A stretch of 64,000 nt of DNA, from the NCBI RefSeq assembly GCF_005144965.1, contig NZ_CP039704.1, positions 1,488,001 through 1,552,000 on the forward strand, in the 5' to 3' direction. Source of the DNA: Hankyongella ginsenosidimutans. Lineage in GTDB: Bacteria; Pseudomonadota; Alphaproteobacteria; Sphingomonadales; Sphingomonadaceae. Each line of letters starts with the position of its first letter. The first letter of the stretch is position 1. Both the position numbers and the translations under genes were made by a program. Shown one piece after another: positions 5,220 to 43,429 of the stretch. A model generated the notes under the pieces. It had not been told where the DNA came from. It saw only the letters and a list, made by a program, of their open reading frames with translations, and did not search any database.

Positions 5220-5383
5220 GTTGGTTTCTCCTCGTTAGTCGAACAAAAGCGTCTGGCGGCGAGCCGTGCTTCATATAAGCCCGCCGACGCATTACGCCAC
5301 TGAGAACATTAACAGATACCACGCGCGCCGTAAACGCGCGATTCTCGCGGGTCGTGGCCCATTTTGGGATTTCTTACCCCACC

Positions 5384-5420
5384 GTCCGTCTTTCAGACGG
5401 ACACCTCCCTAGAGGGGAGG
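5384..5420. repeat. double-hairpin intergenic element
   Basis: Two adjacent hairpins: GTCCGTC/GACGGAC with a five-base loop (5384-5402), then CCTCCC/GGGAGG around TAGA (5404-5420). It lies in the 5.23-5.60 kb gap upstream of infC and downstream of hslO, together with the composite repeat that follows. The type resembles the CTCCCC-based hairpins at 14.1, 30.1, 30.6 and 43.3 kb. No gene is supported between 5234 and 5601. Confidence 0.5.
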
Positions 5421-5469
5421 ATTTTGCTTCGGCGCTCTCAAACAAGCCTTGTCGGCCCGGCCCCTACAC

Positions 5470-14093: not shown

Positions 14094-14138
14094 CGTTTGA
14101 TGACTTGAGAGTTTTCCGGGTCAGATCGAGGCGGATTC

Positions 14139-14229
14139 TCCCTCCCCTTCAGGGGAGGGACGGGGTGGGGCCTGTCAGGCCACGTCTGTCCAATATCCCC
14201 TCCCAACCCCTCCCCTGAAGGGGAGGGGC
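14139..14229. repeat. CTCCCC-hairpin repeat downstream of cysH
   Basis: Two near-identical hairpins built on CCTCCCCTTCAGGGGAGG (about 14140-14159) and its partner CCCTCCCCTGAAGGGGAGGG (about 14208-14228) are separated by a TGTCAGGCCACGTCTGTC spacer. The whole sits between the convergent cysH and HerA genes. The hairpins could act as a two-way terminator. They belong to the same general class as those flanking the DUF559 gene. Confidence 0.6.
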
Positions 14230-14254
14230 CTGATCAGCCTGGACCGGAAAGACT

Positions 14255-28973: not shown

Positions 28974-30102
28974 ATGAAGATTGCCGTGCTGAGGGAAACC
29001 CAGCCGCACGAACGCCGGGTCGCGGCAACGCCTGAGACTGTCAAGAAATTCATTGGCCTGGGCGCAGAGGTTGCCGTCGAGGCCGGCGCAGGGCTCGCCG
29101 CGTCGATCGCGGATGCGGATTTTGCCGCCGCCGGTGCCGCGGTCGCCGACCGCGCCGGAGCGCTGGCCGGGGCCGCGATCGTGCTCAAGGTGCAGAAGCC
29201 CGCGCCGGACGAAATCACCGCACTGCCCAGGGGTTGCGTTCTGGTGTCGACGCTGGACGCGCTGACCGCGCGCGACCTGATGCAGCAGCTTGCCGACCAC
29301 GGCGTCACCGCCATGGCCATGGAGCTGATGCCGCGCATCACCCGCGCCCAGTCCATGGACGTGCTGTCCTCGCAGTCTAACCTTGCCGGCTACAAGGCGG
29401 TGCTGGACGCGGCCTCCGAATACGGCCGTGCCTTGCCGATGATGATGACCGCCGCCGGCACCATCCTGCGGCGCGCGTGTTCATCATGGGCGTCGGCGTG
29501 GCCGGACTGCAGGCGATCGCGACCGCGCGCCGGCTCGGCGCCATCGTGTCCGCGACCGACGTGCGGCTGGCCACCAAGGAACAGATCGAGAGCCTGGGGC
29601 CAAGGCGATCTTCGTCGAGAAGGTCAAGGGCATCGAAGGCGAAGGGACCGGCGGCTACGCGACCGAGATGTCGGACGAATACAAGGCGGCGCAGGCGGAG
29701 CTGATCGCCAGCCACATCCCCAAGCAGGACATCGTGATCACCACGGCGCTCATCCCCGGCCGCCCCGCGCCGCGACTGGTGAGCGCCGCCATGGTCGCGG
29801 CCATGCGCGCGGGCTCGGTGCTGATCGACCTGGCGGTTGAAAGTGGCGGCAACGTCGAAGGCTCCGTCGCAGGCGAGGTCGTCACCACCGCCAACGGCGT
29901 CAAGATCGTCGGCCACCGGAACGTGCCGTCCCGACTGGCGGCGGACGCCTCCGCCCTTTACGCCCGCAACCTGTTCACCTTCGTCTCGACCTTCTGGGAC
30001 AAGGAAACGAAGGCGCCGAAATGGCCGGCCGACGACGAGATCATTGCCGGCATCACGGTGACCCGCGACGGCGCGATCGTCCATCCAAGGCTGGTGGGGT
30101 GA
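28974..30102 (+). CDS. pntAA: NAD(P) transhydrogenase alpha subunit, domain I
   Basis: About 376 residues of the soluble NAD(H)-binding component. It starts [20 protein letters not shown], with the dehydrogenase-like core [20 protein letters not shown] and the Rossmann loop [19 protein letters not shown]. The start ATG at 28974 follows GGGGAG. Frame breaks near 29470 and 29604, both at short G/C runs. With the two membrane subunits it couples the proton gradient to NADPH formation. Confidence 0.93.
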
Positions 30103-30111
30103 GGGTGTCTG

Positions 30112-30208
30112 GCCCCTCCGTCGGGCTGCGCCCGCCCCTCCCCGCTGGGGAGGATCTGCTGCTCCTCCCCGGTACGGGGAGGGGACCACGCGCAGCGTGG
30201 TGGAGGGG
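30112..30208 (+). repeat. 97-bp hairpin repeat, left copy
   Basis: GCCCCTCCGTCGGGCTGCGC, then CCTCCCCGCTGGGGAGG and CCTCCCCGGTACGGGGAGG hairpins, then CCACGCGCAGCGTGG. A nearly identical direct copy lies at 30564-30660. Between them is only the DUF559 gene. It begins 10 bases after the pntAA stop. Confidence 0.8.
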
Positions 30209-30212
30209 CATC

Positions 30213-30676
30213 ATGCTGAGCGGTCCTGCACGCACGATCAGGTCAGCGCGGGTGCTCCGTCAGACCATGAGCCTGCCCGAGGTTCTGCTCTGGCAGGTTC
30301 TGCGGATGCGACCGCAGGGACATAAGTTCCGCCGTCAGCACCCAGCGGGACCGTATGTGCTCGACTTTACTGCGCCGCATCGGGTTTGGCGATCGAAGTG
30401 GACGGTGCAGCGCACGACTGCGCTGACCGGCCGGACCGTGATGGTCAGCGAGACCGGTATCTCGCAACGTTGGGCGTCGAGACGTTGCGGCTGGCTGCGC
30501 GCGACGTGCTAGACGATCTTGAGGCGTCAGTGCGGCTCATTCTGGTGCATGCCGATGCGCGTCGCCCCTCCGTCGGGCTGCGCCCGCCACCTCCCCGCTG
30601 GGGAGGACCTGCTGCTCCTCCCCGGTACGGGGAGGGGACCACGCGCAGCGTGGTGGAGGGCATAGGGAGAACGTAG
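30213..30676 (+). CDS. DUF559 (Vsr-like) endonuclease-domain protein inserted in the pnt operon
   Basis: About 154 codons. The core has QTMSLPEVLLWQVLR, GHKFRRQHPAGPYVLDF and, after a break near 30384, LAIEVDGAAHD, then RDRYLATLGVETLRL. These match DUF559, a PD-(D/E)XK-type domain related to very-short-patch-repair endonucleases: E in PEVLLW, D in VLDF, and E-x-D in IEVDG. No specific target is known. The last 35 codons are read through the right-hand 97-bp repeat and end one base before pntAB, so they are probably not original. It splits an otherwise tight operon. Confidence 0.8.
30564..30660 (+). repeat. 97-bp hairpin repeat, right copy
   Basis: It matches 30112-30208 apart from a few substitutions (for example GCCACCTCCCC for GCCCCTCCCC), in the same orientation. 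The pair brackets the DUF559 gene like direct repeats around a cargo. Confidence 0.8.
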
Positions 30677-30677
30677 A

Positions 30678-30962
30678 ATGGAATTCCTGAACCAACTCTC
30701 GATCTTCGTGATGGCGATCTTCGTCGGCTACTATGTCGTCTGGTCGGTGACGCCGGCGCTGCACACGCCGCTGATGGCGGTGACCAACGCCATTTCCTCT
30801 GTCATCATCGTCGGCGCGTTGATCGCCAGCGCTGCCGAGGGCGCGCCCATCGCCAAATATCTTGGCCTGCTGGCGGTCGTGATGGCGGCGGTCAATATCT
30901 TCGGGGCTTTGCGGTCACCCGGCGCATGCTCGGCATGTACAAGAAAAAGAGAAAAGGCCTGA
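30678..30962 (+). CDS. pntAB: NAD(P) transhydrogenase alpha subunit, membrane part
   Basis: About 95 residues with three membrane helices: FVMAIFVGYYVVWSV, LMAVTNAISSVIIVGALIAS and YLGLLAVVMAAVNIFG. In bacteria with split PntA this is the separate domain IIa. A G-run near 30906 has lost one base; the intended end is GGFAVTRRMLGMYKKK with a second correction in the A-rich tail. It is followed by pntB after 13 bases. Confidence 0.9.
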   Translation: MEFLNQLSIFVMAIFVGYYVVWSVTPALHTPLMAVTNAISSVIIVGALIASAAEGAPIAKYLGLLAVVMAAVNIFGALRSPGACSACTRKREKA

Positions 30963-30975
30963 CAGGGGTACGCTC

Positions 30976-32405
30976 ATGGAACACGCCGCCACGCCCGCCT
31001 GGGCCATCCTCGCGTATCTGGTCTCAGGCGTCCTGTTCATCCTGGCCTTGCGCGGCCTTTCCAGCCCGGAGAGCAGCCGCAAGGGCAACATGTTCGGCAT
31101 GGTCGGCATGCTGATTGCGGTTGTGACCACGCTGGTGACCCACGGGCTGGCCAACATCCCGGAAATCCTGGCTGCGCTCGCCATCGGCGGCGGCATCGGC
31201 TATGTGCTGGCGCAGCGCATCGCCATGACCCAGATGCCGCAACTGGTCGCCGGCTTCCACAGCCTGGTCGGCATGGCGGCGGTGCTGGTGGGTGCGGCGG
31301 CATTCCTCAACCCGCAGGCGTTCGGCATCGTCGATGCGGCCGGCGGCATCCTGCCGGTCAGCCGGGTCGAGATGGGCCTAGGCATCGCCATCGGCGCGAT
31401 CACCTTCTCCGGCTCGGTCATCGCGTTCCTGAAGCTGAACGGCAACATGTCCGGCGCGCCGATCCTGCTGCCTGCGCGCCATGTCATCAACATCGGCACG
31501 CTGATCGCCATTGTGGCGCTGGTCGCAATGTTCGCGCATTCGCCCGCTGCGGCGCAGGGGACGGCACGCTGCTCTGGCTGCTGATGGCCCTGAGCTTCCT
31601 GATCGGCTTTCTGCTCATCATCCCGATCGGCGGGGCGGACATGCCGGTCGTGGTCTCGATGCTCAACAGCTATTCCGGCTGGGCGGCGGCGGCCATGGGC
31701 TTCACCCTGCATAATTCCGCGATGATCATTACCGGTGCGCTGGTTGGCTCGTCCGGCGCGATCCTCAGCTACATCATGTGCAAGGCGATGAACCGTTCGT
31801 TCATCAGCGTCATCGCCGGCGGTTTCGGCGCGGAGAGCGGCGCGGCGGCCGCCAGCGGCCCGAAGGTCGACCGGCCCTACAAGCGCGGTTCGGCGGATGA
31901 TGCTGCTTTCATCATGAAGAACGCCGAGAAGGTCATCATCGTCCCCGGCTACGGCATGGCGGTGGCGCAGGCCCAGCACGTGCTGCGCGAGATGGGCGAT
32001 CTGCTGAAGAAAGAAGGCGTCGAGGTGAAATACGCCATCCACCCGGTCGCCGGGCGGATGCCCGGGCACATGAACGTGCTGCTGGCGGAAGCCAACGTCC
32101 CCTACGACGAAGTCTTCGAGCTGGAGGACATCAACACCGATTTCGGCCAGGCCGACGTCGCCTATGTGATCGGCGCCAACGACGTGACCAACCCCGCCGC
32201 CAAGACCGACAAGACCTCGCCGATCTACGGCATGCCGGTGCTGGACGTGGAAAAGGCCAAGACCGTGCTGTTCATCAAGCGCTCGATGGGCGGGGCGGGC
32301 TACGCCGGGGTCGAGAACGAATTGTTCTTCCGCGACAATACCATGATGCTGCTCGCCGACGCCAAGAAGATGACCGAGGAAATCGTCAAGGCGCTGGCAC
32401 ACTGA
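30976..32405 (+). CDS. pntB: NAD(P) transhydrogenase beta subunit
   Basis: About 476 residues. The N-terminal membrane domain has eight or nine helices (for example [20 protein letters not shown] and [18 protein letters not shown]). The C-terminal NADP(H)-binding domain has [36 protein letters not shown] and [15 protein letters not shown]. The frame breaks once near 31558. It completes the proton-translocating transhydrogenase. Confidence 0.95.
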
Positions 32406-43272: not shown

Positions 43273-43370
43273 CTCTCCCTCCCGCGTGCGGGAGGGTCGC
43301 GCAGCGGGGTGGGTGGAATCGCTGTGCCCACCCCGGCCTGCGGCCACCCTCCCGTGAACGGGAGGGAGAG
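43273..43370. repeat. CTCCCTCCCG-hairpin repeat
   Basis: Hairpins CCCTCCCG/CGGGAGGG occur at both ends (43275-43296 and 43347-43366), with GGGTGG/CCACCC between them. It is the same architecture as the repeats around the DUF559 gene and after cysH, with different loops. Confidence 0.6.
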
Positions 43371-43429
43371 GCTGTGTGCAGCAGGCGCACGTCCGGCCTT
43401 GTTGCCTTATGGCAGGGGAACGACCGGCG

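Follow-up and report, generated by a model that had tools for sequence, protein, structure and literature searches.

A DUF559 gene between hairpin repeats in the transhydrogenase operon

The window, i.e. the whole 64 000-nucleotide stretch of Hankyongella ginsenosidimutans DNA that was analyzed, contains the pnt operon, in which open reading frames placed pntAA (transhydrogenase alpha subunit 1; 28974–30102, plus strand, frameshifted) upstream and pntAB (30678–30962, plus strand, with a frameshift near the 3′ end) downstream of a DUF559 unit. Between the pntAA stop at 30102 and the pntAB start at 30678 lie 575 bp that contain a gene for a Vsr-like nuclease of the DUF559 family (PF04480; 30213–30550, plus strand, 3′ end approximate), defined by two Pfam-matching stretches (30240–30374 and 30362–30547) and by alignment. 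The gene is bracketed by 97-bp direct repeats (30112–30208 and 30564–30660). This arrangement had been proposed in the initial annotation of the DNA, and both repeat copies, as well as the DUF559 match in the Pfam search, were confirmed. The repeats share a 71-nt core that is 99% identical and a 32-nt head that is 91% identical, with one additional A in the right copy relative to the left. Single-strand folding of both repeats was far stronger than that of shuffled DNA (z −6.3 for the left and −4.7 for the right repeat).

Each 97-mer is composed of two two-hairpin units that are arranged head to head (tail′-P2′-P1′ – GATCTGCTGCT – P1-P2-tail). In addition to the three palindromes that had been described initially, the repeats contain a fourth hairpin, CGGGCTGCGCCCG. 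In the left repeat, the outer unit (30112–30153, minus strand) is reversed (tail′-P2′-P1′) and belongs to type 2, as at loci L130, L132 and L133, and the inner unit (30164–30208, plus strand), which belongs to type 1 and is the unit captured by the genome-wide pattern described below, forms the left end of the DUF559 unit. Its two hairpins, P1 (CCTCCCCGGTACGGGGAGG, 30164–30182) and P2 (ACCACGCGCAGCGTGGT, 30185–30201), are followed by the tail GGAGGGG. In the right repeat, a reversed type-2 inner unit (30564–30606, minus strand) forms the right end of the DUF559 unit and is followed by a type-1 outer unit (30617–30660, plus strand). These assignments are based on repeat alignment and, for the two outer units and the right inner unit, also on folding. 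The 97-bp direct repeats result from the presence of an extra unit outside each end of the DUF559 unit. Taken as a whole, the DNA between pntAA and pntAB probably represents one copy of a mobile unit with the arrangement P1-P2-tail – gene – tail′-P2′-P1′.

The PF04480 match exceeds the gathering score, and an apparent 1-base deletion near 30375–30390 interrupts the frame of the window copy. Single-base indels also break pntAA, pntAB and pntB (28974–32405), and the assembly is 86.7% complete. The split is therefore likely a sequencing error, so the DUF559 gene cannot be called dead, and the error-rich appearance of the assembly makes apparent pseudogenes at 28974–32405 unreliable. In line with an earlier remark that the gene reads through the right repeat copy, the second DUF559 frame (30386–30676) runs across the right repeat. 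Within the window, no methyltransferase gene adjoined the DUF559 gene.

Copies, solo elements and mobility

The pntAA and pntAB genes had been described as normally adjacent, and comparison with empty sites bore this out. The DUF559 unit occupies the pnt junction in 14 of 70 genomes examined by tblastn with the tail of the PntAA protein, and in insertion-free relatives the junction mostly comprises ∼2–26 nt and contains no hairpin. The pntAA|pntAB junction seems to be a permissive insertion hotspot. The same operon junctions (pdhC|lpdA, pntAA|pntAB and carA|carB) are occupied across many genera, which indicates that most copies are old and vertically inherited and that jumps are occasional. 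At the pnt junctions of genomes G075 (L171) and G049 (L107), a different solo palindromic repeat was observed with no DUF559 gene, the one in L171 resembling the CGTCATTCCCGC type, and other genomes carry small unrelated ORFs in this junction.

In genome G045, the unit was found at five unrelated loci, as three full copies, one internally deleted copy and one half. Relative to the reference full copy at 2894500, the full copy at 2322319 (on the other strand) is 98% identical and that at 935970 is 86% identical; the copy at 253560 has an internal deletion of ∼184 bp, and only the left half is present at 1308964. The reading frame of the G045 DUF559 protein is intact. A species related to G045 (G100) has one diverged full copy and one lone right end. 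The block shared between G045 copies reaches ∼35 bp beyond P1 on both sides, and element boundaries are approximate, since the flanks of filled/empty pairs are too diverged and the sites are often composite. At two G045 loci (L193 and L197), AGCGGAC/GTCCGC motifs are located 35 bp outside P1 on both sides and move with the unit; they may represent either a duplicated target or outer ends. A role as separate target repeat was considered for the AGCGGACAYTGC block that lies outside P1 in G045, and was rejected: with the exception of one possible relic in G100, its matches elsewhere than in the unit were unrelated 12-mers.

Units of the window type were searched for with the pattern GGGGAGGGGN{0,1}ACCN{6,18}GGTGGAGGGG, which matched in 45 of 100 genomes with up to 108 units per genome (G066); the reversed pattern, used as a control, gave zero matches in all 100. 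In G066, 20 complete solo elements of 93–142 bp were identified, which have common ends (AAAATCCTCC..GGAGGATTTT), consist of one type-1 end and usually one type-2 end, and are nuclease-free. No target-site duplication was detected at these 20 elements (mean match 0.85 nt, compared with 0.61 ± 0.28 nt for shuffled sequences). As far as sequence comparison can tell, mobility of the unit is well supported.

Association of DUF559 genes with flanking repeats

At genus level, the H. ginsenosidimutans genome was the only one available for comparison. Within the family, DUF559 genes are present in 87 of 100 Sphingomonadaceae genomes, with at most nine copies per genome. A survey of sphingomonad DUF559 genes for matching palindromes in both flanks had been suggested, with lack of enrichment beside the repeats as the outcome that would speak against a link; this outcome was looked for and not found. 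Among loci with 20 kb of context, the left and right flanks contained a matching repeat (local alignment score of at least 20) at 48 of 60 DUF559 loci, compared with 1 of 748 control genes, which were other genes from the same regions. In a wider set, for which flank similarity was determined with fixed core coordinates, matching flanks were observed at 99 of 128 DUF559 loci with 60 different neighbor pairs, and the best match was inverted at 74 and direct at 25 of these. The corresponding numbers were 65 of 78 for the named loci of the window clade, which derive mainly from Sphingomonadales, along with Caulobacter and Brevundimonas MAGs, and 15 of 27 for class-level loci outside the family; ∼20% of DUF559 loci have no matching flanks. 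The collection was scanned with an alignment of the window clade (A2), as a more diverse alignment (A1) had no conserved stretch.

Flank repeats with ∼100–130 matched bases were observed at L043, L062 and L184, in direct orientation, and at L081, in inverted orientation; the gene looks as though it were bracketed by entire solo elements. In many DUF559 proteins (e.g. those of L045, L047 and L061), the flanking palindrome encodes the C-terminus (..PLPNPSPARGEG), and a repeat-derived tail is therefore frequent among annotated DUF559 proteins.

The sequence of the ends is related to that of the protein. For the 99 repeat-flanked loci, with only pairs from different genomes with unrelated neighbors considered, protein identity was correlated with flank similarity (Mantel rho 0.347; permutations: mean −0.006, sd 0.039, maximum 0.137). 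Ends were shared in 10 of 12 pairs from unrelated sites in different genomes with more than 60% protein identity, and in 1 of 48 pairs of paralogs less than 50% identical within one genome. Judged by these comparisons, repeat type tracks nuclease lineage and not host genome.

The presence of the window-type repeat also follows that of the nuclease. The repeat was found in none of the 13 genomes without DUF559 and in 45 of the 87 genomes with it (p = 2e-4). With respect to the window clade, whose profile scores are bimodal across the 100 genomes, it was found in 32 of 37 genomes with window-clade DUF559 and in 13 of 63 without (odds ratio 24.6, p = 8e-11; the sample contains nearly one genome per genus and p values are without phylogenetic correction). 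In the 13 repeat-bearing genomes without detected window-clade DUF559, either the nuclease was lost or another mobilizer is at work. Many window-type repeats and no detected window-clade DUF559 were observed in G010 (104 copies), G011, G001, G043, G076 and G097.

Nuclease fold and hairpin structure

The alignment of DUF559 proteins contains invariant E, D, E-x-D-G, H and R residues that are typical of Vsr-like PD-(D/E)XK nucleases. The AlphaFold2 model (pLDDT 85.7) is nearest to 3hrl, a gonococcal DUF559 protein, followed by the catalytic domain of I-Bth0305I (PDB 3r3p) and by Escherichia coli Vsr. I-Bth0305I is also matched at the sequence level (E 9e-5), and the TM-scores for this protein are 0.64–0.73. 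Among 102 distinct P2 hairpins, 84 have a 3-nt loop, which in 69 of these is C-GNA-G, and the stems covary. GNA triloops closed by a C-G pair are unusually stable in DNA, and their prevalence hints at recognition of the hairpins as folded single strands or cruciforms. For the Caulobacter DUF559 protein VsrA, a function in mismatch repair has been proposed, and in vivo it elicits a DNA-damage response if a cytosine methyltransferase is absent (PMC12907096); DUF559 members therefore appear to act on chromosomal DNA.

Proposed mechanism and alternatives

The reading that we favor, with a probability of about two in three, is that the unit is a mobile element similar to the RAYT (TnpA-REP)/REP-REPIN system, or 'REPtron', of e.g. 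E. coli, Pseudomonas and Stenotrophomonas (PMC8266576), but with an unrelated nuclease, the DUF559 protein acting as the putative mobilizing enzyme; the unit would move through sphingomonad genomes as a genetic parasite. The initial annotation had suggested an analogous but unrelated repeat-mobilizing unit, and this agrees with the occurrence of the unit in several copies, of deletion derivatives and of copies without the enzyme, with ends that are specific to each lineage and with the missing correlation with Y1 transposases. In the proposed pathway, the nuclease would recognize the hairpins, probably in extruded or single-stranded form, given that C-GNA-G triloops cap most P2 hairpins, and would cut or nick at these sites. 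Repair of the break would then copy the unit in a homing-like manner, the repeat ends providing the homology. In this way, repeat sites would be converted into nuclease-bearing sites, and incomplete copying would leave enzyme-less pairs behind. Such a cut-and-copy model would account for spread within genomes, for the lack of target duplication, for a solo pair beside the gene at composite sites and for the direct repeats of the window.

The main alternative in terms of chemistry assumes the same unit but a nuclease that aids single-strand excision and insertion of the hairpin-ended DNA, i.e. peel-and-paste as in IS200/IS605 and RAYT elements. The DNA-type GNA triloops and covarying stems of the hairpin ends, the strong single-strand folding and the absence of target-site duplication would all be compatible with this chemistry; however, no partner gene was seen, the structural neighbors of the nuclease include a homing endonuclease, and PD-(D/E)XK nucleases are not known to form the covalent tyrosine–DNA intermediate of peel-and-paste. 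We regard it as possible, though clearly the less probable chemistry.

The main alternative to nuclease-driven movement is that DUF559 is a passenger repair gene located between repeat copies that are moved in trans, in the manner of a composite transposon, by a RAYT/Y1 or other transposase. A composite would give long direct repeats around the gene, as observed in the window and at 12 other loci, and a passenger role would be in agreement with the proposed repair function of Caulobacter VsrA (PMC12907096). The best support for a trans-acting enzyme comes from the 13 repeat-bearing genomes without the nuclease of the clade. However, RAYT-type Y1 transposases are present in just 17 of 100 genomes, and their association with the repeat is not significant (11 of 45 genomes with the repeat versus 6 of 55 without, p = 0.11); no Y1_Tnp match was found in the H. 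ginsenosidimutans genome, in G045 or in the repeat-richest genomes (G066, G010, G042, G081 and G063). In addition, the cargo of a composite element should vary, yet it is DUF559 that recurs between the ends, and the sequence of the ends can be predicted from the DUF559 lineage. A passenger role is thus unlikely.

It is highly improbable that the hairpins are host features (mRNA stabilizers, attenuators or terminators) and that DUF559 genes merely lie in permissive junctions: the hairpins are strong and the units are mostly located between co-directional housekeeping genes (both neighbors at 76 of 132 loci), but matching flanks are all but absent among control genes of these regions (1 of 748), repeat type follows nuclease lineage at unrelated sites, empty junctions are mostly 2–26 nt long and hairpin-free, and identity between copies at unrelated sites reaches 98%.

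Relationship to known systems

Like REPtrons, the DUF559 units consist of a small nuclease gene flanked by palindromic repeats and are accompanied by many enzyme-less, often inverted paired copies; enzyme and repeat co-evolve, and hairpin DNA is the likely substrate. They differ in the feature that defines REPtrons, as the gene encodes a Vsr-like PD-(D/E)XK nuclease and not an HUH/Y1 enzyme. Moreover, the repeat consensus has no GTAG tag, the ends contain two hairpins, and several divergent nuclease–repeat lineages occur per genome. The CGTC-tagged REPs of alphaproteobacteria (Di Nocera et al. 2013), apparently without a dedicated transposase, are likewise abundant palindromes that often form inverted dimers (PMC3733652), but by sequence they appear to be a different family, and the repeats associated with DUF559 exceed them in size and enclose a nuclease gene. 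CCGTC is found in the inner arm of type-2 units; the size and architecture of these units are unlike those of the CGTC-tagged REP, which is a single 20–40 bp palindrome with CGTC at one end. An element that resembles a CGTC-tagged REP stands alone in the pnt junction of G075.

EDxHD/Vsr-like homing endonucleases such as I-Bth0305I, whose known role is selfish spread by cutting, share the nuclease fold and sequence similarity with DUF559. I-Bth0305I is an intron-borne protein whose specific target is long, whereas the DUF559 unit lacks introns and inteins and is equipped with hairpin ends of its own; a relationship to homing elements would lie in the similarity of the predicted fold to that of I-Bth0305I. 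Very-short-patch repair nucleases (Vsr of E. coli and VsrA of Caulobacter) have the same fold and proposed active site (PMC12907096), but the genes of DUF559 units are repeat-bracketed and multi-copy. As in MITEs, an autonomous copy, here the one that bears the nuclease, has ends in common with short copies that lack the enzyme; unlike MITEs, the solo elements have no target-site duplication, and there is no DDE transposase.

The chances are about even that DUF559 proteins are dedicated mobilizers of large alphaproteobacterial palindromic-repeat families. Under that reading, the units would constitute a class of mobile elements whose spread depends on hairpin ends and one Vsr-like PD-(D/E)XK nuclease and involves no known transposase, recombinase or HUH enzyme. 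In the open-access literature, no report linked DUF559 (or COG2852) to palindromic or flanking repeats, and none on REP/REPIN or sphingomonad repeats described an association with DUF559; subscription journals were outside the search. Alphaproteobacterial genomes are rich in hairpin repeats whose spread is unexplained, and one such family now has a candidate cognate nuclease that co-evolves and co-travels with it and whose presence is strongly linked to that of the repeats. For DUF559, a widespread domain of unknown function, this suggests a candidate role in which a PD-(D/E)XK nuclease drives a mobile element, and it cautions against taking every DUF559 protein for a repair enzyme.

Other hairpins and DUF559 genes in the H. 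ginsenosidimutans genome

Three further hairpin loci of the window, at 5.4, 14.1 and 43.3 kb, had been described as related and nuclease-free. By-eye comparison upheld this for the first, a solo right half-unit of the window repeat family (5380–5428, minus strand), but the other two belong to different families. The solo inverted pair at 14137–14230 (CCCTCCCCTTCAGGGGAGGG, second family) corresponds by eye to the ends of another DUF559 gene of the same genome, located between sufC and sufB (L010). For the solo inverted pair at 43276–43372 (CCCTCCCG..CGGGAGGG, third family), no nuclease gene with ends of this type was seen in the genome.

The Pfam search identified four DUF559 genes in this genome. 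Three are short and located between operon genes, in pnt, lpdA|PDH E2 and sufC|sufB (neighbor names were taken from sequence reading and from the literature on these operons), and each sits between palindromes of its own separate family. In the fourth (L013, 932459–932617), the DUF559 domain is part of a much larger protein with helicase-like adjoining sequence, and no palindromes were found near the domain; this branch looks like a different use of DUF559. The same hairpin repeats also occur as two insertions in the isoleucyl-tRNA synthetase gene (L002, ∼132.7–133.3 kb), one of which is open in a frame that runs on into the gene, a reading weakened by assembly frameshifts. These insertions recall the in-gene palindromic elements of Rickettsia.
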